Below, in pieces: positions 31,360-55,849 of a DNA stretch of 64,000 bases. Under the pieces are notes generated by a model. That model had not been told where the DNA came from. It made no database searches and saw only the letters and a program-made list of their open reading frames with translations. The stretch is taken from the NCBI RefSeq assembly GCF_008831285.2, contig NC_045143.1, positions 11,605,503 to 11,669,502 of the forward strand, given 5' to 3'. The translations under genes and the position numbers were made by a program. The first letter of the stretch is position 1, and the number at the start of each line of letters is the position of its first letter. The stretch is from Nymphaea colorata. Taxonomy: Eukaryota; Streptophyta; Magnoliopsida; Nymphaeales; Nymphaeaceae.

Positions 31360-31802
31360 ATTGCTCTTTAAACGTTAGGGCCTGAGTGAGGAGAGCAGGA
31401 GAGAGGAGCTCTATTAGGATTCATCCGCCCTTTGCAGGAGTCAAAATAGTGAGAGTACTCGCCCCTTCTCCACCTGGCCAAGCCGGCAAGGGATTATGCA
31501 CCCATGGAGCTGGGTGATCCTTAGCAAACCCCATTGGCAGCATAGCCTGCGGAAGACGTCTAGCGCTCCTGACGTATTGGGGGAAAAACACGAAGACATC
31601 GCACTGATGAGGGCGGGTCTAGAGATGTCCCCAATCCAGACATGGTGGACATGACATTTCGAATGGAAGGCAACCTTGCAGAAGAGATATACATCAGCAA
31701 GGTGGTAGGCTGGTAGATCAGCATACCTTGGTGGTGAACCTATTTCCTATGAAAAACAAGACCCTCTCTAGTAGTATTAATACCACTATGCGAGCACCTA
31801 AG

Positions 31803-32217
31803 TGTAAAGCAAGTAGTTCGGTGGCAGTGGACTCCATGGATAAGGCAACTACAAATGAGGAAGCAGTTGCTATACCTAGAAAGTGTTTATCAAATAAGGA
31901 AGAAGGGATTGTAGACTTACCTAATCTAAATCAAGATCGTGAGAATCTGTACATAATCATAAAAGATACAACTGAAGGTGAGCCATTTAGGAATTCTTGT
32001 AATGCTGTCAAATGTCATCGCACTAAACATGGAGAGAATATCTCCCACCAAAATTGTAAGCGTCCTCCTTAAAAGGCATAGTGTGTGAGGCTCAAAGTGA
32101 CAAAACTCTTTTGAAGCCTCCTACTGTGGATGTAGGTCTAAAAACCAAACCACGTTAATACTCTTCTCTTGTTGTGATTATGTGGTTTGCCTTCTTTGAA
32201 TCTTGATTTTTTTCTTA
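31803..32217 (+). repeat. Copia-1 5' LTR
   Basis: 415 bp, aligned throughout with 47853-48269. It is preceded by the target duplication CTAAG and followed directly by the primer-binding site. The 3' edge (CTTA) has lost the canonical CA seen in the other copy. An open frame covers much of it (to 32072), with the same stop position as in the 3' LTR. Confidence 0.9.
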
Positions 32218-32230
32218 TTGTATCAGAGCC
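32218..32230 (+). other. Copia-1 primer-binding site (initiator tRNA-Met type)
   Basis: TTGTATCAGAGCC lies immediately after the 5' LTR and differs by one base from the usual plant Copia TGGTATCAGAGCC complementary to the 3' half of initiator tRNA-Met. Confidence 0.8.
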
Positions 32231-32339
32231 CTCCATGACCAGCGCCGAGAACTCTTTTAGCAGTAGCAACATCTAGATAAGTTCATCTATCTCCTCTTTA
32301 CCATCATTGCCTGCACCAAATTCTTTCCAGCAATTTTTT

Positions 32340-33125
32340 TGTTATTTAAATTGAATGGTGACACCTATGTGTTATGGGTTGCTCAATTCCTTTTCCATGA
32401 TCTTGAAGGATATACTGATGGAACTAAATCTACCCTGAAAATTTTGTAACCATTGATGAGAAGCAAATTGATAATCCTGCCCATACTATATGACGGCGAC
32501 ATGATCAGTTATTCAGTTGGCTCATAACATCATTATCTGAACCAATCTTGACTCAAGTCATTGCATTGGAGGCACCATTTGAAGTATGGGTAGCTCTAAA
32601 AAGACTCCTATGTCACTCTGTCGAAAGCTTGTGTAATTCAGCTAAAGGAGCGGCTTCAACGTTGAAGCAAGTCCCTAGTGAAGACCTTATTCTCTATATT
32701 TTGAGTGAGTTGCCTTCAGAGTATGATAGTTTGCGTCTCTCTCTACTGGAGGTCATGACGTCTCCATTTCAGAACTGCATAGTCTCTTGTTATCACATGA
32801 AGTCTTTATTGGTGAGGTTGATAATGAGATTAAGGGCGTCCAAGCTCAGCTCGCGAATACCCACATTAACAACAACAATAATAATCGAGGCCGTGGAAAT
32901 TTTAGAGGAGGACGTGGAGGTCATTTTAGAGGCAGAGGGCAAGGCCGGTTTAACCAGCAGACTGATGGAATAAGCCAAACCATTGTGTGTCAGTATTGTG
33001 ATAAACCAGGGCACTCCATAGAGAATTGTTTCACAATCCACCCAAAAAAATAGGGTAATATTCATCATGTCTATTATGTGACCTCATTTAATTCTGTTAT
33101 AGATGACGAATCTTGGCATCGGGTG
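32340..33125 (+). pseudogene. Copia-1 gag with CCHC zinc knuckle and start of protease, broken
   Basis: Degenerate UBN2-type gag (LNGDTYVLWVAQFLFHDLEG near 32350, LYILSELPSEYDSLRLSL near 32690) is followed by an asparagine/Arg-Gly-rich stretch (RGRGNFRGGRGGHFRGRG, about 32885-32940). A nucleocapsid knuckle follows at 32988-33029 with the spacing C-x2-C-x4-H-x4-C. Stops and frameshifts interrupt it. The frame then runs into the protease region and is cut by hAT-1 at 33126. Confidence 0.8.
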
Positions 33126-33186
33126 CAGGGGCGGAGCCAGGATTTTTTCTCAGGGCGGGCCGAACGGTCCAACTAACTGTAATACA

Positions 33187-33218
<32 letters not shown>

Positions 33219-33691
33219 TCGCACACTTTAAAACATTTGCAAACCATAGTGTATTAAAAGTGAACATATGTCGTATAAAATTACCCACGTCATAAACGTG
33301 AAGCGCGACCTGTCCTACGACACATTTTAATAATTGTTTGTGTCATTAGCACAAAACGCGATCTGTCCTAAACAGATAAAGTGCTCTATTTCTATTACAG
33401 TGACATAGGTGTGAACATAAAGTTGACATACAAACATCACAATAAAAATATAACAAACAAAGACATCTACAAACTAGAAAACCAAAATAAATATTACTTA
33501 CCTATAACAAGCAATTTTGCACTCTTTCTATACAATACAATCTGTTTTTGCCTTTATTTTTATTGAAAATAGTTCCATATCATCATTCATTCACCTGCAC
33601 AATAAAATGTAAATAAAAATTATATCATTTATTATTACAACTAAATAATAACTCAAATAAACATTAACATAAAAAAGATGCAACAAAATAC

Positions 33692-36155
33692 CTATTGTAA
33701 TTGTGCTTTACGGCTTTTCATCTTATGAAAGACATCAATGATATCATTCGAATCAAACATTTGAGCAATTTCTTTTTCAATATACAAAAGTAGACAATCT
33801 GGAAAGAATTCATCCTTCATTTTGTTACGCAACCTTGTTTTAATAAGTTTCATAGCAGAGAATGCCCTTTCTGTGGTTGCAGTGGAGACATGAAGTGTTA
33901 GAATGAGACTAAGCAACCTGTATACATAAGGATATTCTTCACTTTTTCTACTTCGTATCAATACTTCACATACATCTGATAGTGTACTCAAATTTTGAAA
34001 ACTTGGATGATAACAAATATCATTCTTGTAATGTCTCAACTGATAATTTAAACTCATAAAATCTGAGTCTAGAAAATCTTTAGGATAGAACTTCTGTGCA
34101 AGAGTGTATGCATCTTGTGCATTAAACGACTCATATTAATCTCTAGGGTTGAATGTCGACATCAAACGAAGTATTTCCATAGAATTCTCATTAAATCTAT
34201 TATTCAACTCTACCAACTGAGAATCAATGAAAGCAATAAAAATATCAACATGATAATGATGTCTCACTGTAATGAAATTACGTTCACGATGAGAACGTGA
34301 TCATCTTACAAAATATTGAGCATCCATATCTGAAATAGGGATATCATGTGTCATACAAAATGCTCCCACAATATCTATAAATGAATCCCAACCAGTCTCT
34401 CTAAGTTCTTGTAGAAAGTTTTTTGAATTACAAACCAAAACCATTGCATTTAGAATGTCTTGTCTTTCCCTTTGTAATGTCTGACAAAGAATATCACTCT
34501 GTCCCAAAATTTCTTGTACCAGATGCAAAATAAATACAAAGTCAAATGATGTTATCATTTTTGTAAGCTGAATTACCTTCACCCCGTATTTGATATGTTA
34601 ATCCATTATCTCTTAAATTTTTCAATACTACACATGCTGCATAGAACATTTTTATCAAACTACACACAAACAAAAAATGAGATTCCCATTTAGTATCACC
34701 AGACCGCTGTAGTGATCCAATTTGATTAAGTCATCCTCCTGTCTGAAGTTCATCTATAGCAATTTTAAATGCAATTTCGTTTGTTTGAGCTTCGTGCAAT
34801 TCATCATTGCGTTTACTGCTTGCACTAACAACATTAATTATATATGTCAACTGTTCAAAAAAACTATGAACATGAACAACTTCTCTTGAAGCTGCAACAA
34901 GTGCAAGTTGTAATTTATGAGCAAAACAATGAACATAATATGCATAAGGACATTCATTCAAAATTAATGCTTACAATCCATTTCATTCACCTCGCATATT
35001 ACTGGCACCATCATATCCTTGACCCCGTATATCTTGAATACTGAGATTATGTTGAGACAACAAAGTGAAAACTACATTCTTCAATGTAATTGCTATAGTA
35101 TCCCTCACATGCACAACATCTAAAAATCGCTCTTGAACTTGACCTTGCTTATTAACAAATCTAAGAACAACAGCCATTTGCTCTCTCTTGAACTCATCTC
35201 GAGCTTCATCAATAATAATACAATATTTAGCATCACCAATTTCTTCTATAATTTTATCTCTCACTTTACTTGCAAAAACATGTAAAATTTCTTTCTGAAC
35301 TGTTGGTGATGTATATTTAGCATTTTTGAGGGCATTATCCAAAACAACTTGTGCAACTTTGTCATTATAATTAGCCAAAATTTTAATAAACTCAATAAAA
35401 TTACCTTGATTTAATGAACTTGAACTTTCATCATGACCTCTAAAAGCACAAGCTTGGAATGCCAACCAACGAACTGTGTCCACAGATGCCTTCAATCTCA
35501 AATGATTGTTGTAAACAAGCTCTAAACTTTGCTTTTCAATCATTTTATCTATGTGTACGCTTTGACAACTTAAGTCATTAAATGCTCGCACATTCATATT
35601 ATGAGGCGAATTTTGACTTGTCCGTTTATGACTATGAAAAGCACATGTTTTCTCACTACCACCCACCCTCTTCCAAGCTCAGAATCCTTCAATAATAAAT
35701 GGACTGTCATTTGAATGTGGAGTACTGAAAAGATAACACGGTAAACAATATGCACTATCTGTCTTTGGAGAATATTCTAACCATGGAAATCTTTGAAACC
35801 AAGAACTTTGAAATTTACGAGGATGACTTGAAGAACCTGACACTGGATATCTATGAAGCTTATGCTGATATGACCCATAGTTGATATATGCTCGCCTAAC
35901 TTCATCTCTCTTATTTATTGGTATCTCCCATATAGGACGTCGCAACCCTAGATCACACACGATGCTTTCTACAGTTTCAATTTTTGAATACTTAAAAGGT
36001 GGAGAATCTGAGTAAAAAAGAACCACATCAAGAGCTTTTGGACTAGAACAACCAGCATTTTGGTCTTCTCCCTCTTGGTTTTCTCCCTCTTGGTTTTCTC
36101 TCACTTGATCAATAACTTGTTTCTTTTTGAAATAATCTTGTATACTTTTCTTCAT
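33692..36155 (-). pseudogene. hAT-1 transposase pseudogene (TTF-type finger, DUF4371, hAT dimerisation)
   Basis: Reading leftward from ATG 36155: an MKKSIQDYFKKK start; a TTF-type zinc-finger region with KFQSSWFQRFPWLEYS and AYCLPCYLFS; a stop at EGF*AWK (35679-35681); a DUF4371/catalytic region with RWLAFQACAFRGHDES, DAKYCIIIDEARDE and RGQGYDGASNMRGE; another stop (34983-34985, probably a former Trp); YYVHCFAHKLQLALVAASRE; then further broken blocks (34301-34582). It ends with the dimerisation domain at 33692-34057 (LLSLILTLHVSTATTERAFS, LRNKMKDEF). The family is usually annotated as zinc finger MYM-type/TTF-type HAT dimerisation protein. Few lesions separate it from an intact frame, so it is a fairly young loss. 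Confidence 0.9.
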
Positions 36156-36365
36156 TTTCTCAATAAGCTAGCACAAAAAATCTGAAACCTAAAATAGACA
36201 ATAAGATTTATACACATCGAAGAAAGTACTAAATTTTTAACTTGTGAAAAACAGGAATTTATAACCAACCACCTTATAAACAATAGATAAAGAAGACAAT
36301 TTACCTGTTGAACCTCTTGCACTATGTAGAACAATGAAGAGTTGTTTTCTCCCCTGGCTAACTTG

Positions 36366-36563
36366 CTTTTCGAATTACCACAAGTGGAGTACAGTCTGAA
36401 AAATGAAACAAAAAATGATTTTAGGCCTTTATGAAGCTACTTTTATAAATTCCTACAGATGTTGCTTTTTGAATTACCACAAGTGGAGTAAAGTCTGAAA
36501 AATGAAACAAAGAATGATTTTAGGGCTTTATGAAGCTACTTTTATAAATTCCTACAGATGCCA
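36366..36563. repeat. 99-bp direct tandem duplication inside hAT-1
   Basis: GAATTACCACAAGTGGAGTA begins at 36372 and again at 36471, and the following CTTTATGAAGCTACTTTT is repeated with the same 99-bp spacing; a few substitutions separate the copies. It lies upstream of the transposase start, in the likely 5' non-coding region. Confidence 0.85.
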
Positions 36564-38526
36564 TTTAACTTTTTTCACTTCTCATCAAATCACCATTTAA
36601 CTTAAAACATTTAAGTGAAATGACGGATGCCAATCAACAACTTCTTTCGCTGCTACTCTCTTATTTCACCAAGTTCTCCTACTCTACTAAGTTCATCTTG
36701 ATGTGTTGATCATATTGCTGGTACTGCTGGTGCAACATTCTCATCTTTAAGACTACTAATGTCAGATAGTGTGCCTAGTGTATCATTAAAGCCAATGACA
36801 AAATCTTGATGATGTGGATCTGGGTTGTCCTGCAACCTTGTGCTTCTTTGAGTAATACTATGGACTCCTCTATGATTCATCCACACACATCATTAATCAA
36901 GTTGCAGTGTCATGTAAATGCATTATGTCACCAACAGGGCAGATTCCCTGACTTTATTGTTGGTTTCTGACATGAAATTGCTGTATCACTACTCCATGAG
37001 AACTGAGAACAACACCAACAGGGCATACTGTGAAAAGAGTCATAAAGATCAAATTGTCGTTCTAATAATATAGCAAAAAGTCTTTACAGCATTTACATGT
37101 GAAATCTGCCAATTTGGAGTTTTCCCTTTTCGTTAAAACAAGAGACAAGGAAAATCGAACAGTATTTTTGATGCCATTGATTTGGCTTATCTTTCTTTCT
37201 TCATTGTGGTCCAGACTCCAGAGAGATTAGATACAAGATTTTTACATTCAACACACCCACCAACTCTTCTAACTGCATGTATTCCCTTTTAGAGAATTGA
37301 AATCAATTGGTTGCCTCTGCAGTGAATGATTTTTTTTTTTAAATTTTGTGTTGCAAAAATCCGTTGTGAAAGGTTCAATAGTGATGACAATTGCTTGCCT
37401 ATGATTTTTTTAGTGACAGTCTGACAGAATACATATTTTATAACAAATTTTAGAAACACAAACTAAAAAGAAAAAAAAATCATGTTCGACTACAGAGGCA
37501 GCCTGCTGATTTGTCTTCCTCCTGAAATTTCTAGAAACTTTTCTTCCTCCTCAATTCACAGAAGTGGAAAATGCAACGTTTCTTTTTCCTTTGACTTAAA
37601 ACAAATTGCTGCAAGTCCCCTTTATAAGGAAGTTCCAATGTTAATTTTATCTATTTATGTGATTGTATGGGGTATTCTCAAATCCCACTGAAAGTAAAAA
37701 GAATGCCGTGGATACTGGGTACTGAAAACATGACTGCAAAGTAAAAAACATGTGAGAACGGCAGCCATCAATGAAATGAAGCATTGAAGCCCATAAACAG
37801 TTCATGGATGCAGGGAAAAATCTGCCAAGCCACGTTAAGATTGTGTTCACAAAACATCAAAATCCTAGAAATTAAGACTAGGAAAAATAAATGACGGCTG
37901 AAAAAGTAATGGAAAACTATGAAACTGTGAACGATTAAGGTTCAAGGTTAAAAAATAAATAATGTGCATAATAGAAATTAGAAATCCACGATCCACCATA
38001 GACAAAAGAAAAATGACAGACAAGGTTAACAAAAAAGAAACACAAAAACTAAAGTATGAAAAAACGGCCCCACCATATTTCACTAAGCAACAAAAATGAA
38101 CAGAAGAAAGTCAGGAAATGGCCCCACCTCTTCTTGAAGCCAGCAGGCAGCAGGGACCAGCGTGCTCGTGCTCAGTGCCTCTTGTCTCTTCCTTTTTGTC
38201 TCTCCTGCACGCTGCAGTGGGTGCTCCCTTTTTTCCTCACTGGTTTTCTGTATCACTCTCAGACCCTCTTCTTCTCTCTTTATCTCTCGTTTTCTCTCCG
38301 TCATGCATTTTCCCTTTTTTGAAAACCTAGGGCAAACAAAAGTGGGGTGGGCCACGGAGTTGGAGTTGGATCCAGGTAGGGGTAGGGCCAATTTGAACCC
38401 GGATCTGAATACTACATAGAATTAATAAAATTTTGAAATTTTTATAATTAATTTTTTTTTTCCTCCGCCTGGGGTAGGGCCATGGCCCAGGCGCCCCCCC
38501 CCCCTCCATCCGCCACTGATCGGGTG

Positions 38527-39397
38527 CCACGCATCACATGACTCATAATATCAAGGTGGAGAATCTATTAAAGTCTGCGATGGGAAAGGTTTGCCTCTCA
38601 TGTGGGCACTGGTGTTGTAAATTCTCATGGCTCTAAGTTTTCACTTCATGAGATTTTACATGTGCCTCTTATTACTAAGAAATTGCTTTTCGATCAAAGA
38701 TTCTCGAAGGACAATGGAGTAGTCTTCGAATTTGAAGACAAGGAGTGCAAGTTAAAGACAAAATGACTTGACAGCAATACGTTAGTGAATCAGTTGAGAT
38801 GGTTTTTACAAACTTTATTTTGAAACTTTAAACAAGAATATTAAGACTTTTATTGGAAAAAAGTCTAATTTTGTTTTATGCCATTTTAGTCGTAGGCACC
38901 CTAGTTTAAAGATTATTGCAAGAATTGTTAAGCAGTTTGGAGTGATTTATAATAGCCATGATAGTTTTGTTTTCTCTTCAAGTTAGTAAGAAAAGATGCA
39001 TAAATTTCCCTTCAATCGCATAGACTACTCCCAATTTAAACCTCTTGCGATTGTTTTCAGTGATGTATGGGGGCTTGTGCCTGTCTTTAGTTCGATCAGT
39101 GAACGGTTCTATGTTATATTTGTGACACCTTTTCTAGATTTACTTGGACTTAAATGATTAAAAAGAAATCTGATGTCTTAGAAGCAATAAAAAAATTCAA
39201 GCTTCTTGTTGAAAATACAACCAGTCATAAGATCAGATTCCTTCACATTGATGGTGGTGGTGAGTGCCGTGCACTTGATCCTTTCCTTGAAAGTGTTGGG
39301 ATTGACCATGCATAGATACTCATGCCCACACACGTAGGAGCAGAATGAGATTTCTGAAAGGAAGCACAGACCCATAGTCGACACCAGCCAAACTCGT
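38527..39397 (+). pseudogene. Copia-1 pol: protease remainder, GAG-pre-integrase and integrase core, broken
   Basis: After hAT-1 the frame resumes with the protease phrase GATHHMT in one frame. The pre-integrase motif RRHPSLKIIARIVKQFGVIY follows near 38893-38950. Integrase-core pieces include FSDVWGLVPV (about 39056), FYVIFV, IRFLHIDGGGE (about 39230-39262) and ERKHRPIVDT (about 39356-39385). The first two catalytic aspartates are visible in DVWG and HIDGG. Stops and frameshifts interrupt it. Confidence 0.8.
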
Positions 39398-40096
39398 ATG
39401 TCCCACAGTCAAGTTCCTACTCGTTTTTGAAACTTTGCCTTCTCTACAACAGCCTACTTGGTTAACCGACTACCTTCTAATAAACTAAGAAATAAGAGAC
39501 CTATTGAAAATCCTTTTGAAAAGAAGATTGACTACACTTTTCTGAAGACTTTTGGATGTTTGTGTTACAAATTTTTGTCCTTAATGCAGATGCAAGCTTG
39601 ACTTCAGAGCTAAGAGGCAAATGTTTTGGGGGTAGTAGTCACCATGGCTATATTTGCATGGATTTGGATACTTTCAAGATGGTGATTTCAAAAGATGTTA
39701 TGTTTGGTGAAAAAAAAATCTCATTTGCCAGAGTGAAAAATGAAGCTGGTGTACCCAATCACAAAATTCTGAACCCATTGTTATCTCTACCTGGACCTCT
39801 ACTTGTATTCAAGAAAGTGAAAACCTTGGCCAAAATCAAAATCATGAAACCTGAACTACCAAGTCCAGAACCTCTCAGTCATCTCCTCTTCTCTAGCACT
39901 CCACACCAGCCTAATGAACCTATCCATGAACCTCATTCACCATATGAATGTATTGAACCTAAACGCCAACCTTCAAACCAAAGTCTTAGAACTCACCCTA
40001 TGATCACTAGGAATAAGGATGGAACTAGGAAACCATTGACTTCCTATTGAAGTATGTCTTGTTCTTTGATTCTTCACCCAATCTTAGTCTAGAAAC

Positions 40097-42305
40097 CTAT
40101 GTCACCGCGGTATGCCTGGAGGACCCGTGTACCGGTACCGGTATGCCGGTACGGCAGTACCGGTACGGCGGTATGTGGTGGTACGTTTGGATCTGGTTTC
40201 GGATCGAAACCAGATCCAAACCATATTTCAATCCGAAAAACATAAACCTAAGGCATTTTTTTGCCCGACGCTTTCTTCTTCTCGGGTTCTCCTTCTCCGC
40301 CTCCGTTACTGTTTCTTCTGAAAAGCTTCGACGACCGGTGGCAGTGGCGGTGACAGACAACCGGTGGATGGCAACCAGCAACGGAGGCGATAGCGGTGAA
40401 CGGCGAGGGCACCAGAGGAGACAGACGGTGAGTGGGCCGGCCTCTGTTTCTTCCTCTTTGATTTCTTTTTTTGTTTCACACGAATCTTCTAATTTCTATT
40501 TCATTAAGCATGATATGAAGGTTTGTATTACGTATATTGGGCATATCTGATATCTGACTCTTTGCTTTCCACCAACTATTTTGATTTCTACCAACTTAAG
40601 AAAAAGGGGTTTCGGTGCACTGAAAACCCTTCCCCTTTGAGCCTCTCTACTCTCGATGAGTAGCCTCCACTGAAAAAGGGCCTTCCACTTTCCTATTTAC
40701 TTCTTGCCATTGAGAAAATGCTCCCAAACTGATAAAGACGCCTTTTTATGATTAATTGATTATGCATTGTCTAGCATGGACTTTTTTAATGATGTCCCCA
40801 TGTGACAGATTCTATGTCTGTGAAGAAATTTGCCTTAACTTTCCTTTCAACCAGGATGAGGCAACACTGATTTGGTATTCACATGGAGAGGAGAGGAATT
40901 TGAAGCTATCATCTGTCTCTAAGATTATCCCCGGACAAAGAACTGTAAGTTTACTTGTCATCATGGAATTGGTTTCTAGTACTTGTTCTTAGTTCCCATA
41001 CTATTTTCAGTGCTTTTCCTGTAGAAGCTATTTTGATTTATTTTAGTTTCCTTATTTCCTTCAGGCTGTTTTTAGAAAATATCTATGTCCAGAAAAAGAC
41101 TATCTTTCTTTCTCCTTGATATATAATAATGTTGAACGATCATGGATCTGATTAGTGGACGTTTGAGTATGTTACTTTTAGGCTACTGCAAAGGATCTTT
41201 AGGTACACTATTTTTATAGTTGGTTGTTACTGTTTGCACATTATTACTGGTCTGGTTCTGATCCCTAATCTTCTCATATGCTATTACATATGAGAAAAGA
41301 GAAAAAAAAATGGCAGCACGGCAATGGCAGTCAGTCACACACCCTTCATCTGGGATTTAATCATTTGAACAATGAACACAGAATGCAACAGAATTACTCC
41401 TGATTGAGCACAAATATCAACATACTTTTATGTCATTGATATGATTATATAATATTTTATTTATATCCATATTCTAATTATGTTTTTCTAAATAATAATT
41501 GCTCTTTTCATTATCTTTGTTATACGGCTGCCTCAAGTAAAGGGAAGGGAACTACTTCTACACCTACAAGTTGAAGTTGTGCATCGAAAGCTTCATCTCA
41601 GTTACAAGAGGGCCAGCCATTATGGGGTTATATGGAAAATAAAGGAAAAGCTCCTAGAGGTGGTCGAAATGTAATCTTTGAATGTTTTTTTTGTATGAAG
41701 GAGTTCAGTGGAACATATACAAGAGTGAAAGCACATCTACTGCGCATGAAAGGTAATGATATTCAATTGTGCAAGAATATCAAACCTGATAGTGTCAATG
41801 AGTTGAAGAAGGAGCAAGAACAATATGATATGAAGAGAAGTGGTAAACAATCTGGTTTTCTTCCTATTCCTTCGGTACTCTTATACGAAGATGCAGTCCA
41901 TGAGCAGAAAAAAAGAAATTTGGACACATTTCAAAAATCAATTGAGCAAACATGTGCTTTACAAAAAAGGCAGGAATTAGATAGAAAAGTTGGAACATTC
42001 TTCTTTTCTAGTTGCATACCATTTAATGCAGCTAGAAATCCATATTGGAAGGATCTAGTTACATCTTTGGCAAATAGCAATATGTCTGGATATGTTGCAC
42101 CAGACTCTGAAAAGCTTCGAACAATCATCCTACAACAAGAGAAGAGTCGAATATTATCCTACAACAGATGTCATGATATCATTTTTTGTTTTTCTCAAAA
42201 TTTATAATTTTTAAATTAAAAAACTAATATTGTCGCATAAAAAATATACCGTACCCGTTTTCTCGTACCCGTACCAACACTTGTACCCGTACCCAGGTGA
42301 CATAG
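40097..42305 (+). mobile_element. hAT-2, internally deleted hAT element in tandem unit 1
   Basis: Termini CTATGTCACCGCGGTA and, reverse-complemented, CTATGTCACCTGGGTA. Flanks CTAGAAAC (40089-40096) and CTAGAAAA (42306-42313) are an 8-bp target duplication with one mismatch; the same site in the other tandem units is uninterrupted. The left subterminal region is packed with GTACCGGTAC/GGTACGG motifs, and the right one with GTACCCGTACC. Only the BED-finger portion of the transposase remains (41548-42207). Short frames at 40047-40550 and 40756-40992 show no family similarity. A related solo end is at 20017. Confidence 0.9.
41548..42207 (+). pseudogene. BED zinc-finger remnant of hAT-2 transposase
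   Basis: A frame opening at the ATG at 41632 (191 aa) contains NVIFECFFCMKEFSGTYTRV followed by KAHLLRMKGNDIQLC. This is the C-x2-C ... H ... C BED-finger arrangement at the N-terminus of hAT transposases. It continues with the linker to NPYWKDLVTSLANSNMSGYV, then ends at a stop where the catalytic and dimerisation domains should begin. It is therefore an N-terminal DNA-binding fragment. Such a piece could in principle bind hAT ends without catalysis, but nothing here shows it is expressed. Confidence 0.75.
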
Positions 42306-45300
42306 CTAGAAAATGATTCATCAACTAACCAAAAAGCCTGTAAAATCTCCATTGGCAGTGAACTATGGAAGAAGAACTCCAAGCTCTTCAAAAAAATCAT
42401 ACATGGACATTGGTACCACCTCACAATGCCAACAGCCAAGTTCCTACTCGTTTTTGGAACTTTGCATACTCTACCGCAATTTACTTGGTCAAGCGGCTAC
42501 CTTCTACAACACTAAGAAATAAGAGCCCTACTGAAAATCCTTTTATAAAGAAGCTTGATTACACTTTTGTGAGGACTTTTGGATGTTTATGTTACAAATT
42601 TTCGTCCATAACACAGACACAAGCTTGACTTCAGATCTAAGAAGCAAATGATTTTGGGGTAGCCGTCTATATTTGCACAAACTTGGATACGATTTCAAAA
42701 GATGTGTTTGATGAAGAAAAAAATCTCATTTGCCGAGAGGAAGAAAGAAAGCTGGTCTACCCAACCACAAAATTCTGAACCTATTGTTATCTCTACCTGG
42801 ACCTCTATCTTTATTCAAGAAAGCAAAAACCTTGACCAAAATCAAAATCATGAACCAGAACTGTCAAGTCATGAACCTGTCAGTCCTCTTCTCTTCTGTA
42901 GCACTCCACACCAGCCTAATGAGCCAATCCATGAACCTGATCCACCAAATGAAAGTATTAAACCTCAATGTCAACCTTCAAATCAATGTCTTAGAACTCA
43001 CCCTATGATCACTAGAAATAAGGATGGAACTAGGAAACCAAAGACTTTTCTCTCCAAGTATATCTTGCTTTCTAATTCTTCACCAAATCTTAGACTAGAA
43101 ACTGAACCATCGAGCAACCAAAAAGTTTGTAAAAATCTCCATTGACAGTGAGCTATGGAAAAAGAACTCCAAGCTCTTCAAAAAAATCATACATGGACAT
43201 TGGTACCACCTCACAATTCCCACAGTCAAGTTCCTACTCATTTTTGGAACTTGCCTTCTCTACTGCAGTCTACTTGGTTAACCGGCTAGGGGGCTACCTT
43301 CTACTAAACTAAGAAATAAGAGCCCTATTGAAAATCCTTTTAAACAGAAGTTTGACTACACTTTTCTGAGGATTTTTGGATGTTTGTGTTACAAATTTTT
43401 GTCTTAATGCAGATGCAAGCTTGACTTCATAGCTAAGAAGCACATGTTTTGGGGGTAGTAATCACCATGGCTATAATTGCACGAACATGGATACTTTGAA
43501 GATGGTGATTTCAAAAGATGTTCTGTTTGATGAAAAAAAAAAAAACTCTCATTTGCTAAAAGTGAGAAAGAAAGCTGGCCTATCCAACCACAAAATTCTG
43601 AACCCACTGTTTTCTCTACATGGACCTCTACCTTTATTCAAGAAAGTGAAAACTTTGACCAATATCAAAATCATGAACCTGAAGTATCAAGTCAAGAACC
43701 TCTCAGTCTTGTTCTTTTCTCTAGCACTCCACACCGGCCTAATGAACCTGATCCACCAAATGAATATATTGAACCTCCTTGCCAACCTTCAAATCAAGGT
43801 CTTAGAACTCACCATATGATCACTAGGAATAAAAATGGAACTAGAAAACAAAAGACTTTCCTATTCAAGTATGCCTTCCTCTTTGATTCTTTGCCCACTA
43901 TTAATCTAGAAACTGAACCATCGACCAACCAAAAAGCCTACAAAAATATCTATTGTCAGTGAGCCATTGAAGAAGAATTCCAAGCTCTTCAAAAAAATCA
44001 AACATGGACATTGGTACCACCTCACAATGCCCACAGTGTAGTTACTACTCCTTTTTGGAACTTTGCATTCTCTATCACAGTTTAATTGGTTAATCGGCTA
44101 CTTTCTACTAAACAAAGAAATAAGAGCCCTATTAAAAATTCTTTTTTAAAAAAGTTTGACTACACTTTTCTAAGGACTTTTGGATGTTTGTGTTACAAAT
44201 TTTCGTCCTTAACACAAACTCAAGCTTGAATTAAGATCTAAGAACCACATGTTTTTGAGTTAGTAGTCATCATGGCTATAGTTGCATGGACTTTGATACT
44301 TTCAAGATGGGGATTTCAAAAGATGTTATGTTCGATGAAAAAAAAAAAATCTCGTTTGCCAAGAGTCTGAAAGAAAGCTGGTTTACCCAACCACAAAATT
44401 CTGAACCCATTGTTATCTCTACCTGGACCTCTAGCTTTATTCAAGAAAGTGAAACCTTGATCAAAATCAAAATCATGAACCTGAACTGTCAAGTCAAGAA
44501 CCTGTCAGTCATCTTCTCTTCTCGAGCACTCCACACCAGCCAAATGAACCTATCCATGCACCTGATCCACCAAATGAATGTATTGAACATCAGTGCCAAC
44601 CTTCAAATCAAGGTCTTAGAACTCACCCTATGATCACTAAGAATAAGGATGGAACTATGAAGCCAAAGAATTTCCTATCCAAGTATGCCTTGCTCTCTGA
44701 TTCTTCATCCAATCTTAGTCTAGAAATTGAACTATCAAACAACCAAAAAAAAGCCTGTAAAAATCTCCATTGGCAACGAGCTATGGAAGAAGAACTCCAA
44801 GCTCTTCAAAAAAATTATATATGGACGTTGGTACTACCTCACAATGCCCACAGTCAAGTTCCTACTCATTTTTGGAGCTTGCCTTCTCTGCCACAATCTA
44901 CTTCGTTAACCGGCTATCTTCTACTAAACTATGAAATAAGAGCCCTATTGAAAATCCTTTTAAAAAAAAAGCTTGACTACACTTTTCTGAGGACTTTTGG
45001 ATGTTTGTGTTACAAATTTCCATCCTTAACATAGACACAAGGTCGACCTCGAATCTAAGAGGCACATGTTTTTGGTGTAGTAGTCACCATGGCTATATTT
45101 GCATGGACTTGGATACTTTCAAGATGGTGGTTTCAAGAGATGTTATGTTTCATGAAAAAAAAAATCTCATTTGCCAAGAGTGAGAAAGAAAGTTGGTCTA
45201 CCCAACCACAAAACTCTAAACTCCTTGTTATCTCTACCTGCACCTTTACCTTTATTCAAGAAAATAAAAACCTTGACCAAATTCAAAATCGTCAACCAAA

Positions 45301-46435
45301 ACTATCAAGTCAAGAACCTCCCACTCCTCTTCTCTTCTTTTGCACTCCACACCAGTTTAATGAACCTGATCCACCAAATGAATGTATTGAACCTCCTGAC
45401 CAACCTTCAAATCAAGGTTTTAGAACTCACCTTATGACCACTAAGAATAAGAATGAAACTAGGAAACCAAAGAATTTCTTATCCAAGTATGCCTTTCTCT
45501 CTGATTCTTTACCCAATCTCAGTCTAGAAATTGAACCATCAACTGACCAAAAAACCTGTAAAAATATCTATTGTTAGCGAACTATGGAAGAATAATTCCA
45601 AGCTCTTCAAAAAAATCAGACATGAATATTGGTACCACCTCAAAATGCCCACATTCAAGTTACTACTCGTTTTCGGAACTGTGCCTTCTCTACCTCAGTC
45701 TATTTGGTTAACTAAGAAATAAGAGGCCTATTAAAAATCCTTTTAAAAGAAGCTTGACTACACTTTTTTAGGACTTTTGGATGTTTGTGTTACAATTTTT
45801 CGTCCTTAACACAAACTCAAGCTTGACTTCAGATCTAAGAGGCACATGTTTTTGAGGTAGTAGTCACCATGGCTATATTTTCATGGATCTGAATACTTTC
45901 AAGATGGTGATTCCAAAAGAAGTTATGTTTGATGAAAAAAAAATCTCATTTGCTAAGAGCAAGAAAGAAAACTAATCTACTCAACCACAAAATTTTGAAC
46001 CCATTGTTCTCTCTACCTGGACCTCTAGCTTTATTCCAGAAAGTAAAAACCTTGACCAAAATCAAAATCGTGAAGCTGAAGTATCAAGTCAAGAACATCC
46101 TAGTTCTCTTGTCTTCTCTAGCACTCCACACCAGCCTAATGAACCTTTCCCATGAATCCGATCCACCAAATGAATGTATTGAACCTCAAGGCCAACCTTC
46201 AAATCAAGGTCTTAGAAGTCACCCTATGATCATTATGAATAAGGATGGAACTAGGAAACCAAAGATTTTTCTATCCAAGTATGCCTTGCTCTCTGATTCT
46301 TCACCCAATCTTAGTCTAGAAACTGATTCATTGACGACCAAAAAGCCTGTAAAAATCTCCATTGGCAGTGAGTTATGAAAGAAGAATTCCAAGCTCTTTA
46401 AAAAAATCAGACATGGACATTGGTACCACCTTACA

Positions 46436-47852
46436 ATGTTTAGAATCTGGTCAAATGCAAGTGGGTTTATAAGATCAAAAGAAAATCTGATGAGACTCTT
46501 GAAAGGTATAAGGCCAGGCATGTCACTAAAGGTTTCCACCAAGAAGAAGGTATAGATTCTTTTGAAACATTCAGCTCAATTGTTAAATTTGTGGCAATTC
46601 GAACAATACTCTCTATTGTAGTTAGTCGCAGATGGGTCTTGAGGCAGCTTGACATGAATGGTGCCTTCCTAAGTGGAACACTTTGTGAGACTATCTACAT
46701 GACACAGCCCCTGGTTTTATTGATGAAAGGAAACCCTCCTTTGTTTACAAGTTAAATAAAGCGCTTTGTAGGTTGAAACAGCCCCCCGTGTTTGGTTTCA
46801 AGAATTGAAACTCACTTTGACTTATTTAGGATGTGGATGTTCAAAAACTGATCCATCTTTATTTGTTTATAAAAGGAATGATATTATTGCTTACATCTTG
46901 GTTTATGTCAATGACAGGAAGCAACACATAATTTATTGAAGATCTCATTATTTCCATCAGACAAGAATTTGCTCTTAAAGATATGGGGAAGTTACACTAA
47001 TTTTTTGGCCTTGAAGCAACTCAGTCCCATCAAGCTCTCTTCTTACCTCAGAAGAAACATATTCTAGATTTGCTAAACAAGGCCAACATGCTTGAAGCAA
47101 AATCGATGTGACACCTATGGCCACCTCAACAAGTCTTTATGGTGGAGACAATCAAGTAATGGACAATGCAACTCTTTATTGAAACACTGTTGGAGCTCTT
47201 TAATACCTCATTGTCATGCGCCCAAATATCTCTTTCAGTGTCAACTAGGTTTGCTAGTTCATGCACAAACCGACAATTCTTCAATGGACTATTATAAAAG
47301 GATCTTGTGGTACTTGAAATCCACCATTGATTATGGGCTCTTTTTTATAACATCATCTGATTGTAGTGTTCGTATCTACACGGATGCTGACTAGGCCGAA
47401 TGCCCAATGGATAAAAGATCTACATTTGGGTTTGTAGCTTATTTTGGACCAAATCTGATCTCATGGATCTCACGAAAGCAACGAGTTGTTTCTCGCGCAA
47501 GCATTGAAGCAGAGTACAAGGGTATTGCTAATGCAACTGCAGAGGTGGCATGGATCACTTCTCTTTAATCCAAAACGTGGAGTAAAGTCTTCCTCAATCC
47601 CAACTATTTGGTGCGATAATTAAGTGCAAACTTTCTTGTTGATCATCCTACCTTTCACAATCAAAGTAAGCACATGGAAATAGATATGCACTTTATTTGG
47701 GAGAAGATAGTAAATAAGGTTTTTCAAGTCCAACACTTAATTTCCAAGGCACATATAGCAGACATTCTTACTAAACTAGTGGGATGAGAACTTTTCATTC
47801 AATTCCGAAATAAGTTGAATGTTCAACCTCCACCGCACAGCTTGCAAATGTA
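46436..47852 (+). pseudogene. Copia-1 reverse transcriptase and RNase H, broken
   Basis: RT begins NLVKCKWVYKIKRKSDETLE and continues with HQEEGIDSFETFSSIVKFVA and RQLDMNGAFLSGTL. The catalytic motif at 46904-46915 reads Tyr-Val-Asn-Asp instead of Tyr-Val-Asp-Asp, so a metal-binding Asp is lost. RNase H is recognisable as [31 protein letters not shown] (near 47455-47520) and HMEIDMHFIWEKI-like sequence near 47675. A stop follows ADILTKLVG. A frame reopening before the PPT region continues into the LTR to 48126. Confidence 0.85.
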
Positions 47853-48269
47853 TGTAAAAGCAAGGAGTTCAATGTTAACGGTCTCCATGGATAAGGCAAC
47901 TATAAATGATGAAGCAGCTGCTATACCTAGAAAATGTTTATTAGACAAGGAAGAAGGGATTGCAGGCTTACCTAATCTAAATCAAGATCGTGAGAATCTA
48001 TACACAATCAGGAATGCTATAAAAACTAAGGGCGAGCCATTTGGGAATTTTTGTAATCCTCTCAAATGTAATCCCACTAAACATGGAGAGAATATCTCCA
48101 GCCAAAATTGTAATTGTCCTCCTTAAAAGGCATAGTGCGTGAGGCTCAAAGTGATAGAACTCTTTTGAAGCCTCCTATCATGGATGTAGGCCTAACAGCC
48201 GAACCATGTTAAAACTCTTCTCTTGCTATGATTTAGTGGTTTGCCTTCTTTAAATCTAGACTTTTGTCA
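47853..48269 (+). repeat. Copia-1 3' LTR
   Basis: 417 bp starting TGTAAAAGCAAGG and ending TTTTGTCA, followed by target duplication CTAAG (48270-48274). It is collinear with the 5' LTR, with scattered substitutions and small indels. Confidence 0.9.
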
Positions 48270-48561
48270 CTAAGATGATGAACCAAACCAGCCTCCCTCG
48301 AGTTTTTCCCACAAACAGATGGATCACTACAAAACTGATGCATACCAAACATCAGACTTTAAGGACATGACTGCAAGGACATGACTGCACCTCCTCTGGA
48401 GACAAGTATGACCTCTATCTCCTTCCTTATGCTGGTCCCATAGGTGGCCTTATTCCGAAAGATGGGAGGGCAAAGGCAGTCAGATCCTTAGTTTAAGAAA
48501 GCAAAAATGCCACAAGGAAACTTGTGAATTCAAGGAAGGAGGATGGTGTTGGGAATATGGC

Positions 48562-48605
48562 GGGGGGGGGGGGGGGGGGGGGGCGGGGGTGGGGGTGGAT
48601 GGGGG
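48562..48605 (+). repeat. Guanine tract with G-quadruplex potential
   Basis: Twenty-two consecutive G residues (48562-48583), then three further runs of five G with short interruptions. Polymerase or assembly slippage may affect the exact length. Confidence 0.85.
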
Positions 48606-50373: not shown

Positions 50374-50813
50374 TGAAACTGTAACACATCTCACCACCAA
50401 GACTTACCAACAATCACACAAAGGAAGATTGCATCGGATACAGTCAAGGAAGACACTCCAAGGAAATCTGCTACGGTTACAGCCAAAGGCAATAATCAAG
50501 GAAGGAACCAATTTAACAAGAAATCAGAAGATGAACCGGCCAGGCTGCAGATTGCGTCCAAAGATGATAAGAGCAATCAAATTACAGTTACAAAGGAGGA
50601 TAATGACAAACACAAATAAAAAATGGTCAGCTACAGAATTAATGTAACCTCTCCTAAAATAAAGGAGAGACTTGAGGTTGTATTGCTATAAATTCTGAAA
50701 GGAACCTTCCCACCATAGTGTGGAAGAAACCCTCGTGGATGTAGGTTTTTCTCACCGAACCACGTAAAATCGTCTTTCTCTCTCTCACTCTCAATGATTT
50801 CTATTTTCTCTCA
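50374..50813 (+). repeat. Copia-2 5' LTR
   Basis: 440 bp starting TGAAACTGTAACAC and ending TTCTCTCA. It contains an open frame (to 50619) that is continuous with the pol frame in the 3' copy. A CT-rich segment near the end (50773-50791) probably lies in the R/U5 part. Confidence 0.95.
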
Positions 50814-50825
50814 TGGTATCAGAGC
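50814..50825 (+). other. Copia-2 primer-binding site (initiator tRNA-Met type)
   Basis: TGGTATCAGAGC immediately follows the 5' LTR and matches the usual plant Copia primer-binding site exactly. Confidence 0.92.
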
Positions 50826-51230
50826 ATTAATCGGTGGAGCTAGAGGTAATTCGCCACGATAGCAATTCTGTTGAAGGAGAGTTGAGACCGCTATTACAGC
50901 TCTTTGTTCAAAAAGAGTCTATGATCTCTTACCTCACCGCTGTGATCTTTTCTACTGCCGAGAGCAAGAGGTGTACACGCTGAGAGCGGGAGGCATACGC
51001 AATTGCTAGGTGGAAGACAGGCCCACACAGTACTTTCCCTGCATAGCCTGCCCTGCTCTTTGTTAAGGTGCTCTGCAACAATTCCTGGCTTGGAACATGG
51101 CAGTTTGTCAGGAGCAGCTTCAGGCAAGAATTCTACCACACACAAATCTTGTGTGTTTCTGCTACTGGTCATCATCTGAACACATCAGATTTTGAGCCGT
51201 AAAGTTTGTTTTAAGCTCAGTTTTTCACCT

Positions 51231-52160
51231 ATGGCTGCTTCCAATATTGCTTAACATTACCTGTATCCTTACAACTTTAATGTCACAAATTTTGTGACCA
51301 TCAAGTTGAACCAAACCAATTTTCTTGTTTGGAAAACTCAATTGCTTGGACTCATTGAGAGTCAAGACATGACTAAGTTCATCGAAGGAGAAACGGCTGC
51401 ACTTGAACCCACCATCCAGCATGTCAAGGAAGATGACATGGTGGAGGAACGCGTGAATCCAGCCTATCAAGCATGGCGAAAATCAGATCGTCTATTGCGT
51501 GGATGGATCACCGACACACTCGTAGAAGAGGTTATGGGCACAATAATTGGGCTTCAAACATCTAAAGAGGTATGGAACACCCTTATGACACACTTTTCTC
51601 ATAAATGTCAAGAGAGGGAACATTTGCTTATGCAAAAACTCCAAACATATAAGAAAAGAAACCTAGCTATTTCAAACTATATCTGTGGTTTCAAGAAAAT
51701 ATGTGATGAGTTTGCAGCTATAGGCAAACCAATCGAGGATCATTCCAAAGTTTTTTGGCCCCTTAGTGGATTGGGACAGGAATATGAATCGTTTACCACC
51801 ACTATGATGAAGCCTCCAACACCATCTTATATAGATGTTGTAGCCCAACTTCAAGTCATGAAACCATTTGAAGTATGTATCATGGAGATACTAGTGACCA
51901 TGCTGCATTTTACAGCAAGAGGTACACAAATCCCAGATTTAAACCAAACAAAAATCAATTCTTTAATTCCAAGGGCCGAGAGTTCACACAGGCGGCACAA
52001 ACTGGAGGACAAACTCCATCAAATCAAACCAAGAGTAGCGAACGAGGAGAACCCCCAAGCAAGAACAAAGGTGTTCGTTGTCAAATCTGCCACAAAATGA
52101 ATCACAATGCTGCAAATTGCTGGCATCGGTTCAATCATGCTTTTCAAGCCCAGGAGGTAC
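51231..52160 (+). pseudogene. Copia-2 gag, frameshifted
   Basis: The probable start at 51231 (MAASNIA) meets a stop at codon 8. The UBN2-type gag then runs FVTIKLNQTNFLVWKTQLLG, EVWNTLMTHFSHKCQEREHL and ICDEFAAIGKPI to about 51850, where a frameshift moves into the frame beginning at 51875. The nucleocapsid knuckle CQICHKMNHNAANC (about 52081-52122) has the C-x2-C-x4-H-x4-C spacing. The early stop and the shift make it a pseudogene. Confidence 0.88.
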
Positions 52161-55100
52161 CACATGCACTAGCAGCTATGAAGACAACCGACAGACACGA
52201 TGACAAGTGGTTTCCGGATACAGGGGCGTCCACACATATAACATCTGATCCATATAATCTTACAAACTTTACCAAATATCATGGTAGCGATCAAATTATG
52301 GTGGGAAATGGTGAAAAATTGAATGTTACTCATATTGGTAATACGGCCATTCAAAATGGGGAAAGACATCTTGATCTTAATAATGTTCTTGTTGTGCCTC
52401 CAAATTAAGAAGAATCTAGTTTCAGTCAGCCAGTTAACATCAGAATATCCATACATATTTCAATTCTCTGTTGATGGTTTTTCCGTTAAGGACAAGAGGA
52501 ACAATCGGCTAATAGCATCGGGCAGTAGAACCAGAGGTCTTTATGTGTTTCAAGAAACCAAGGACCAGCAGCATACAGCCTTCTTCTCCAACAAATTTCG
52601 ATCAGTCAATAAAGAGACATGGCATCAACGTTTGGGTCATCCTCATTATCAGATAGTTGATTTTCTTGTTAGCAAAAATAATAATGAGGTGAGTGGACCT
52701 CAATCAAGACTGTCAATTTGTTCTAGTTGTCAAGTTGCCAAGATGTGTCGACTTCTTTTCTTCCAATAGAAGATCATTCTCAAATTTTTCTTGAGCGAAT
52801 TCGTTGCAATTTATGGGGACCAGCCCCCATCACGTCTACACAACATTTTCAATTTTATGTTATATTTGTTGATGAGACTACAAGATTTGTTTGGCTATAT
52901 CCCCTTCAGCACAAATCTAAACTTTGTCAAGTGTTTATGGAATTTCATAAATTAGTTGAACAACAGTTTGAGACAAAGTTAAAATTTTTCCAAACCGATG
53001 AAGGCGGTGAATTTAACAGTCTTGTATTATAGCATTATTTGAAACAAAATGGAATTCAACACGTCAAGGCATGCCCCAAAACGCCGCCACAAAACGGTTT
53101 GGCTGAACGGCATCATCGGTCCATCGTTGAATTAGGCCTCGCCATGCTATTTCATGCTCATATACCTTGAAATATTGGGTCGATGCTTTTCTTACTACGG
53201 CATGGTTGATTAATCGGTCCCACTTTGCAAATGAAGTCACCATTTGAGTGTGTTTTTGGAAAGAAACCAGATTATGCATGCCTTCGTATTTTTGGCAGTC
53301 GATATTTTCCGTATTTGAGAGATTATGCCAAGAACAAATTTGAACCAAGATCATTACCATGTGTCTTTTTGGGGTATAGCTCTATTCATAAAGGCTACCA
53401 GTGTTTATATCCTCCTACTGGACGTATATATATTTCATGGCATGTGGTATTTGATGAAGCATAATTTCCGTTTCATAAACTTGGAATATTATTTTCAAGC
53501 GTTGCACACCAGCTGCAACCTGCAACCTTTAATGATTGGACCGAGCCTCCTCACACCACCAATGATCGAGCTGAGCCTCATGCTAATTATGAAACTTTAT
53601 CTACTCGTATGCATCATGAAGAGCTTCCAACGCAAGAAGCATCACCAGATACTTCATCTCCTCACTTGCATCATGAAGAGCTTTCAGCGCCAAAAGCATC
53701 ATCACCTACTATCACTACCTCAAATCCTCACGAATCGGCCATGCACACCGAGGACTTTCATCTTACTACAACAACCTCACGAAGTGCTACTCCTACAGTC
53801 TCAACTCATGCCATGGTCATCTAGCAAAGGCTGGTATTACCAAGCCCAATCCTCGCTACTTTCTCACTGCAAGTATTCCTTTGGAACCTAAAACAGTGAA
53901 GGAGACCTTAATGCATGATGGATGGGTGGCAGCGATGAAGGAAGAACTCCATGCCACACATGGACCCTAGTTGCTCGACAACCGAATATGAATGTGGTAA
54001 GCACTCATTGGGTTTTCAAAACCAAGTTGAAAAGTGATGGCACACTTGAACGTCTCAAGGCTAGACTTGTAGCCTGTGGTTTTAATCAAATACCTAACAT
54101 TGACTTTATGGAGACTTTCTCTCTGGTCATCAAACCGGCTACCATTCGAATTGTCCTCACCATTGCCTTGACCAACCGATGGAACATCAAGCAGATTGAC
54201 GTCAAAAATGTGTTTCTTCATGGTAACTTAGATCAAACTGTTTTCATTGAGCAGCCACCGGGCTTTCTTGACCCTTCTAAGCCAAATGCACGTATGTAAA
54301 CTTCACCGGGCTTTGTATGGTCTTCATCAGGCTCCTCGTACTTGGTACGATTGGTTTGGCTCCTTCTTGTTAACCAAGGGGTTCTATGCTAGTATTTCTG
54401 ATTCCTCCCTGTTTGTCTATCGAGAAGCTCGAGGTACTCTTTCTTCTTTATGTAGATGACATCATTCTCACCGGGAGCAATAGTACTATGCCTTAGCAGT
54501 TTGTTAAAGAATTGAGTATTGAATTCGTCATGAAAGACCTTGGCTATCTTCATCATTTTTTAGGCATGGAAGTTGTGCAACCAGATCTGGACTTTTCTTA
54601 AATCAAAGGCGTTATGATTTCAGTCTACTTGAACGTGCGAAACTACTTGGTTGTAAAAATGCCATTACACCATTAGTTCAATACTATCAAGCTTGTCCCG
54701 ACGACGCACCATTCGCTGATCCCACGTTATTTCGAAGTCTTGTTGGAGGGCTGCAATATTTGACGTTCACCAGGCTGGACATATGATTCAATGTTAATTA
54801 TGTCAGCCTGTACATGCAGACACCAACCAATAGTCACTTTCAGCTTGTAAAACGTATCCTTCACTACATTCATGGAACAATTTCTGATGGGTGTACACTA
54901 TCTCCACAACGTGATTTTAGGCTTCATGCCTTCTCTGATTCTGATTGGGTCGGTTGTCATGCTACTCGACGTTCTACTACTGTTATTGTACATTCATCGG
55001 AATAAATTGCATCTCTTGGGCTGCAAATAAGCAACCCACTGTAGCTCGATCTACGACAAAAGCAGAGTATCGATCTATGGCCTCTGCAGCAGCTGAGCTT

Positions 55101-55406
55101 ACATGGATTACATATATTTTGAAATATCTTGGTATATACTTGGCTCATGCTCCAATCCTATACTGTGATAATATGTCTTCTCTCCAGGTTTCTATTAAAC
55201 CGGTTTTCCATTCACGTATGAAACATGTCGAATTAGATTATCATTTTCTGCATGAGAAGATTGCACTCGGCCAACTTACAACACAATTTGTACCTTCCGC
55301 TCAACAACTTGCTGACATTTTCACTAAGGCACTCTCAATTCCTCACTTTTACTCTCTTCGCGACAAACTGGGCTTGACTAGAGCCCCGCCTAGTTTGAGG
55401 GGGGAT
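52161..55406 (+). pseudogene. Copia-2 pol: protease, integrase, RT, RNase H; multiply broken
   Basis: Protease WFPDTGASTHIT is near 52209-52244, with its catalytic Asp intact. Pre-integrase KETWHQRLGHPHYQIVDF is near 52613. In the integrase core the first catalytic residue is Asn in CNLWGPAP (about 52805) where Asp is expected; QTDEGGEF (about 52993) and NGLAERHH (about 53095) retain the other two acidic residues. Integrase C-terminal PDYACLRIFGSRYFPYLRDY and GYSSIHKGYQCL follow. RT has THWVFKTKLKSDGTLERLKA, QIDVKNVFLHGNL and an intact YVDD at 54449-54460. RNase H includes SDSDWVGCHATRRST, ARSTTKAEYRSMA and HFLHEKIALG. Frame changes occur near 52400, 52760, 53030, 53460, 53820, 54297 and 54480. 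The last frame (from 54945) reads through the PPT into the LTR, ending at 55658. Confidence 0.92.
55398..55406 (+). other. Copia-2 polypurine tract
   Basis: GAGGGGGGA directly abuts the TG that starts the 3' LTR, the position of the plus-strand priming site. Confidence 0.9.
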
Positions 55407-55849
55407 GAAACTATAACAGCTCACACAGCTCACCACCAAGACTTACCAACAATCACGCAGAGGAAGATTGCATCGGATACAATCAAGGAAGACACTCCAA
55501 GGAAATCTACTACGGTTACAGCTAAAGGCAATAATCAAGGAAGGAACCAATTTAACAAGAAATCAGAAGATGAACCGGCTAGGCTGCAGATTGCATCCAA
55601 AGATGATAAAAGCAATCAAATTAGTGTTACAAAGGAGGATAATGACAAACACAAATAAAAAACGGTCAGCTACAGAATTAATGTAACCTCTCCTAAAATA
55701 AAGGAGAGACTTGAGGCTGTACCGCTATAAATTCTGAAAGGAACCTTCCCACCACAGTGTGGAAGAAACCCTCGTGGACGTAGGTGTTTTTTCACTGAAC
55801 CACGTAAAATCGTCTCTCTCTCTCTCTCAATAATTTCTGTTTTGTCTCA
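55407..55849 (+). repeat. Copia-2 3' LTR
   Basis: 443 bp starting TGAAACTATAACAG and ending TTGTCTCA, then target duplication CATAG. Compared with the 5' copy it has a small insertion near the start (CAGCTCACA region) and scattered, mostly transition, differences. Confidence 0.95.

Follow-up and report, generated by a model that had tools for sequence, protein, structure and literature searches.

A sixfold tandem array of a pol segment within a decayed Copia retrotransposon of Nymphaea colorata

A decayed Copia retrotransposon of Nymphaea colorata contains six units of ~0.8 kb arranged head to tail, each running from near the integrase end to the first codons of the reverse transcriptase (RT). 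Within error, the array already consisted of six near-identical units around the time the element inserted. Judged by divergence, copies and insertion seem to be of about the same age, an indication that the copies were made near copying or insertion and not slowly afterwards. The reading we prefer, to which we give a probability of about one half, is that of a single old Copia insertion in which one duplication was followed, near insertion, by rapid homologous amplification to six units, most likely in reverse transcription. The window, i.e., the whole stretch of DNA analysed, comprises 64,000 nucleotides (C6:11605503–11669502) of a genome of 408 Mb in 783 contigs, in which the searches were run; positions are those of the window unless a contig is named.

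The host element and its units

The outer ends of the element are flanked by the direct repeat CTAAG (31798–31802 and 48270–48274), and its two LTRs, both starting with TGTAAA, are 85.4% identical over 412 columns in self-BLAST (Table 1). The short flanking TSD and the paired LTRs characterize it as a Ty1/copia LTR retrotransposon, and the RVT_2 match, which lies above the cut-off, identifies the RT as Copia-type. Directly 3' of the 5' LTR there is a PBS-like stretch, TTGTATCAGAGCC, which we take to resemble an initiator-methionine tRNA site. The gag piece gave a weak Retrotran_gag_2 match (E 0.0019, below the Pfam cut-off), and a below-cut-off match of the RNase H piece to an unrelated Pfam family was taken as chance. 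For the region upstream of RT, we assume from its motifs and their order that it is integrase (IN). The original prediction had named it so, and the order of the motifs fits this label; the SH3_retrovirus matches in the units are weak (E 0.0016 and 0.029, both below the cut-off), and a Pfam search of the IN pieces returned no match, rve included. Translated similarity to the closest related element of the genome, L001 on C9, runs in the same gene order.

Table 1 Features of the array-bearing element (window positions; u1 to u6, units 1 to 6)
Feature	Position	Strand	Basis or remark
Array-bearing Ty1/copia-type LTR retrotransposon, decayed	31803..48269	+	LTR pair, ends, CTAAG, RVT_2
5' LTR	31803..32217	+	self-BLAST; right edge +/- about 2 bases
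hAT-like insertion 1	33126..38518	.	perfect 8-bp TSD ATCGGGTG at 33118-33125 and 38519-38526
Unit 1 (u1), first part	39402..40096	+	self-BLAST and unit alignment
hAT-like insertion 2, within unit 1	40097..42305	.	ends CTATGTCACC/GGTGACATAG, TSD
Unit 1 (u1), last part	42314..42428	+	self-BLAST and unit alignment
Unit 2 (u2)	42429..43216	+	end 43216 or 43217
Unit 3 (u3)	43217..44029	+	start 43217 or 43218
Unit 4 (u4)	44030..44846	+	self-BLAST and unit alignment
Unit 5 (u5)	44847..45647	+	self-BLAST and unit alignment
Unit 6 (u6)	45648..46438	+	sole unit running on into RT
Reverse transcriptase open piece	46444..46752	+	Pfam RVT_2 E 9.5e-21
3' LTR	47853..48269	+	self-BLAST, ends read in sequence

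The total length of the element is 16467 bp. Subtraction of two inserts (5401 and 2217 bp, each with one TSD copy) and of 4010 bp (42429–46438) leaves 4839 bp, the figure also given in the original prediction for the element without the extra units and two hATs. That prediction had located the array correctly, but the LTR-to-LTR insertion enclosing it has its ends outside the interval described. An unbroken frame spans none of the six units, and the RT frame is interrupted too. Just 3' of the element, at 48559–48605, there is a run of some 40 bases, nearly all of them G.

Both inserts are later than the Copia element, and both are putative hATs as judged from TSD length and ends and, for insertion 1, from the protein (DUF4371, E 3.8e-58, 34983–35666, minus strand); the traits used to name them are those we assume for the hAT family. 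The two hAT inserts predicted earlier thus hold as hAT-like insertions with 8-bp TSDs. Insertion 2, found in u1 only, has inverted ends of 10 bp and is flanked by an 8-bp TSD whose two copies differ by one mismatch (CTAGAAAC/CTAGAAAA, 40089–40096 and 42306–42313), and its 191-aa ORF has no Pfam match. Insertion 1 contains a 99-bp tandem duplication, 96% identical, at 36363–36560, and short GTACCGGTACGGCA-type repeats occur near the left end of insertion 2 (40129–40173).

Self-BLAST of 30–50 kb gave head-to-tail offsets of about 789, 1600, 2414, 3218 and 4010 bp, with unit-scale and longer self-matches of 717–3489 bits (E displayed as 0.0), and a separate repeat search recovered matching repeat families. 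These spacings, the shortest being 789, agree with the 790–817 bp head-to-tail units originally described, and it is indeed the last unit alone that continues into RT. The array escaped Tandem Repeats Finder, which handles periods up to 500 only. Across the 747 alignment columns in which none of the six units has a gap, the units differ at 11.5–15.1% of positions, and private indels are present among them. Misassembly is common in tandem arrays, but a simple assembly stutter, also dismissed in the original prediction, fails here because of this divergence, the private indels and the transposon insertion in u1 only; the probability of an assembly artefact is negligible.

The junctions u1-u2, u3-u4 and u4-u5 read CAATGCC(C/A)ACA, and those of u2-u3 (CAATTCCCACA) and u5-u6 (AAATGCCCACA) are one substitution off each. 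As the five junctions have one common breakpoint, the first duplication was a single event whose founding junction was then copied. The sequences that flank the array, GTATGTCCCACAG ahead of unit 1 and ACAATGTTTAG behind unit 6, have ATGT in common at the breakpoint; this is compatible with a microhomology of at most four bases and the loss of one base, although so short a match also arises by chance. The majority columns of the unit alignment number 813, a multiple of three, and open pieces at 42362–42625 and 44453–45031 cross junctions; therefore, the founding duplication was in frame, an outcome that chance alone gives in one case out of three. A dimer (higher-order) structure had been suggested by ungapped repeat families and was dropped, since gapped distances show mostly an indel effect; after this, weak u3/u5 and u1/u3 sharing remains.

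Divergence of the units and of the LTRs

The mean K2P distance between units is 0.149 (bootstrap 0.131–0.168) and that between the LTRs 0.157 (bootstrap 0.117–0.203), for a unit/LTR divergence ratio of 0.97; its bootstrap interval, 0.71–1.29, is wide, as the LTRs offer no more than 409 comparable sites. When CpG-type positions were dropped pair by pair, the units gave 0.1328 (range 0.116–0.157) and the LTRs 0.133. The standard deviation of the 15 pair distances, 0.0117, compares with a binomial value of 0.0124, roughly so given that the pairs are non-independent. With the units as old as the LTR split, the dating favours amplification at or near insertion and weighs against slow unequal exchange spread over the whole period since. 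At 1.3e-8 substitutions per site per year, a rate for grasses that is uncalibrated for Nymphaea colorata, the LTR distance would correspond to about 6 million years. The LTRs are old and 14% different, and we infer that they were identical at insertion; conversion can disturb LTR dating, as the accessible text of PMC7251063 warns. By codon phase, variable sites number 81/83/81 of 249/251/247, with singletons at 59/57/58 and shared sites at 19/19/19, and the evenness of the phases leaves no trace of protein-level selection after the units split.

The six-unit phylogeny is near-star, but it shows an excess of shared sites and groupings that depend on the data set. Shared (informative) sites number 57, whereas a star predicts 23–28, whether or not rate variation is allowed for, with an upper limit of 39. 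Removal of 50 CpG-type columns leaves 40, compared with 15–25 expected (upper limit 36), and transversion-type shared sites number 23, compared with 7–14 (p 0.021 in the most permissive setting). Sites with the same split cluster (10 adjacent pairs vs 3.9, p 0.0035), a PHI-like test gave p 0.068, and two indels are common to u3 and u5. In maximum likelihood (ML) trees from three data sets, internal branches make up 3.3–6.1% of tree length; the trees beat the star by 5.6 to 12.9 log units and conflict among data sets, with u1 grouped with u3, or u3 with u5. Conversion was rejected as the full cause of the shared sites: five of the nine u1/u3 sites are of CpG type, so that decay of methylated sites can mimic a conversion tract, and the excess survives removal of such sites. 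We read these departures as a limited stepwise history, or later conversion, overlying a near-simultaneous amplification.

Relatives in the genome and comparable arrays

A search of the genome for further copies returned distant relatives only, none with the array. At the DNA level, a single unit, the LTR, and the IN and RT parts each served as query, and none of them detected a second copy, though gaps may hide matches. The unit search yielded its own locus and one 43-bp match on C11, and no long or dispersed monomer arrays of the kind that mark a satellite, its counts being lower bounds. The closest LTR relative, on C8, is 71% identical, and the closest element, L001, is 67% identical in IN and matches in the order gag, IN, one unit, RT. 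Among the 150 of 7284 candidates scored in an RT protein search, the best relative is 63% identical. The IN search led to seven other places, all with an RT match nearby and all lacking the extra units. At six of them the IN-to-RT spacing is that of a single unit, 866–1123 bp, compared with 998–1052 in the present element when insertion 2 and the extra units are set aside; the 125 bp spacing of the seventh was read as an internal deletion. A PF25597 census (150 of 7571 candidates scored) revealed by eye no two matches within 2 kb on one contig, which is weak evidence, as the units of the array-bearing element itself lay outside the 150. From these searches, the array would be particular to the present copy, or to a family otherwise lost.

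Other repeats were encountered along the way. A second Copia element lies downstream in the window (50384–55722), with direct repeats of 300 bases at 50384 and 55423 that are 95% identical, and with Pfam matches to Retrotran_gag_2 (E 5.5e-18) and RVT_2 (E 5.8e-28); a repeat search found no internal array in it. At C6:12916214–12932310, three SH3_retrovirus matches on one strand, 5.7 and 10 kb apart, are possibly neighbouring or tandem Copia elements. Near the C8 LTR relative, L002 2108–2687 is made up of tandem repeats whose period is about 71 bp.

Template-switch complex LTR retrotransposons, which are TSD-flanked and have matching outer LTRs, have been ascribed to one faulty reverse-transcription cycle, and two of the four complex elements of Sabot and Schulman (2007) are Angela-like Copia (PMC1950507). 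The present element is likewise a complex insertion with TSDs (CTAAG) and a matching outer LTR pair. However, theirs are whole elements joined via an internal LTR, whereas here a pol segment is present sixfold and self-BLAST of 30–50 kb shows two LTRs only, with no third, internal one. Retand/Ogre elements also hold tandem arrays but, in the accessible text of PMC11963269 and PMC7004042, these are Gypsy elements, found in many copies, with the array between pol and the 3' LTR; the present array lies in pol, upstream of a Copia-type RT, and was found in one copy. For Ogre-type 3' arrays, the same portions of PMC7004042 only propose abnormal strand transfer between co-packaged copies and call the mechanism undetermined. 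Tandem LTR-retrotransposon structures of rice and other plants are, as here, apparent single insertions, for which the available part of PMC11899658 considers both insertion-time and later-recombination origins; unlike our pol-segment units, they repeat the whole internal region with shared LTRs. The maize repeats CRM1TR and CRM4TR are LTR-retrotransposon-derived too, but their units, as far as the accessible text of PMC3648361 describes them, span LTR and UTR and form separate arrays outside the pol of any one element. Titles and abstract openings, mostly from outside subscription journals, describe no tandem amplification of pol segments. A tandem array inside an LTR element is a known arrangement; what seems new here is that the repeated segment is coding pol sequence and that the element is a Copia.

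Origin of the array

The first step is shown by the junctions: a single in-frame duplication linked a site just within RT (..CAATG) to one near the integrase end (CCCACAG..). In the preferred reading, this join was non-homologous and microhomology-like and gave two units. A rapid homologous process would then have taken the two units to six, the units being near-identical, within error, while both LTRs were still identical. The growing strand could have slid back between the ~0.8 kb direct repeats during reverse transcription, on the same RNA or a co-packaged one, either in the cycle that founded this insertion or in a slightly earlier one. The array-bearing product would have integrated whole, with TSDs, and decayed neutrally thereafter; the modest sharing seen mainly for u3/u5 may be a residue of stepwise amplification or of later conversion. 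One integration with TSDs, the matching dates and the published precedents make reverse transcription the natural setting. The original prediction had named two routes, template switching in reverse transcription and post-insertion unequal exchange; the ratio of 0.97 speaks against exchange of the slow kind, and we infer that template switching is the better fit.

According to the available text of PMC3187697, intramolecular switches in retroviruses can yield duplications, and direct repeats, including those in retroviral vectors, change copy number by template switching in reverse transcription. That text, which describes no sixfold gain, also states that deletion is the fate of most large direct repeats, and that homologous switches outnumber non-homologous ones by a factor of at least 1000. 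Because deletion is usual and non-homologous switches are rare, six units in one cycle would be an unusual outcome. That the whole array arose in one retrotransposition cycle, through one non-homologous backward jump and repeated homologous back-slides that gave six in-frame units before integration, is therefore a tentative proposal that we consider possible but doubtful. With no source element or sibling found, an array made at insertion and one already present in an extinct parent are indistinguishable.

The dates fit nearly as well if the burst took place early and in chromosomal DNA, one or two units having been inserted and the array having expanded soon after by unequal exchange, replication-fork re-copying or rolling circle, with exchange then ceasing. 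The lower bound of the unit/LTR ratio, 0.71, allows such an event early in the life of the insertion, and the history common to some units suits stepwise exchange. However, all 15 pair distances agree, within sampling error, with one another and with the LTR distance, and exchange would have had to go through four or more early steps and then cease despite the persistence of tandem repeats; we consider this course of events less likely than the preferred reading. Unequal crossing-over and conversion acting slowly across the whole life of the insertion could account for the u1/u3 site cluster, the scattered u3/u5 sites and indels, which resemble tracts, and the adjacency of same-split sites. 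Such exchange predicts young unit pairs, yet the closest pair has a K2P of 0.126 (LTRs, 0.157), the CpG type of most u1/u3 sites and the PHI-like test also argue against it, and we regard it as very improbable.

The array might instead be older than the insertion, the parent in an active lineage being already multi-unit and the present copy a late lone survivor. After an in-frame founding duplication the RT could still have been translated, and the excess of shared sites suits some unit differences that predate insertion. These points are offset by several others: neither the DNA searches nor the RT protein search revealed an array-bearing sibling, the units are on average no older than the LTRs, shared sites lack codon-phase bias, chance suffices for the frame in one case of three, and large repeats tend toward deletion at each reverse transcription in the accessible part of PMC3187697. 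We consider an inherited array improbable, more so than an early chromosomal burst.

Taken alone, this is one dead element, and no function is claimed for it. Satellite DNA can be seeded by tandem arrays within retrotransposons, and the available text of PMC7004042 treats it as undetermined whether they arise while the element is reverse transcribed or afterwards, in chromosomal DNA. An array between two LTRs carries its own clock, in that the LTR split dates insertion and the unit splits date amplification; here the two clocks agree, and the main value of the element lies in this two-clock test. The same comparison could be applied to other LTR elements with internal arrays, which would make the question testable across genomes. 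If the one-cycle origin is true, reverse transcription can directly build gene-sized tandem arrays, and the LTR pair would be the clock that shows it.
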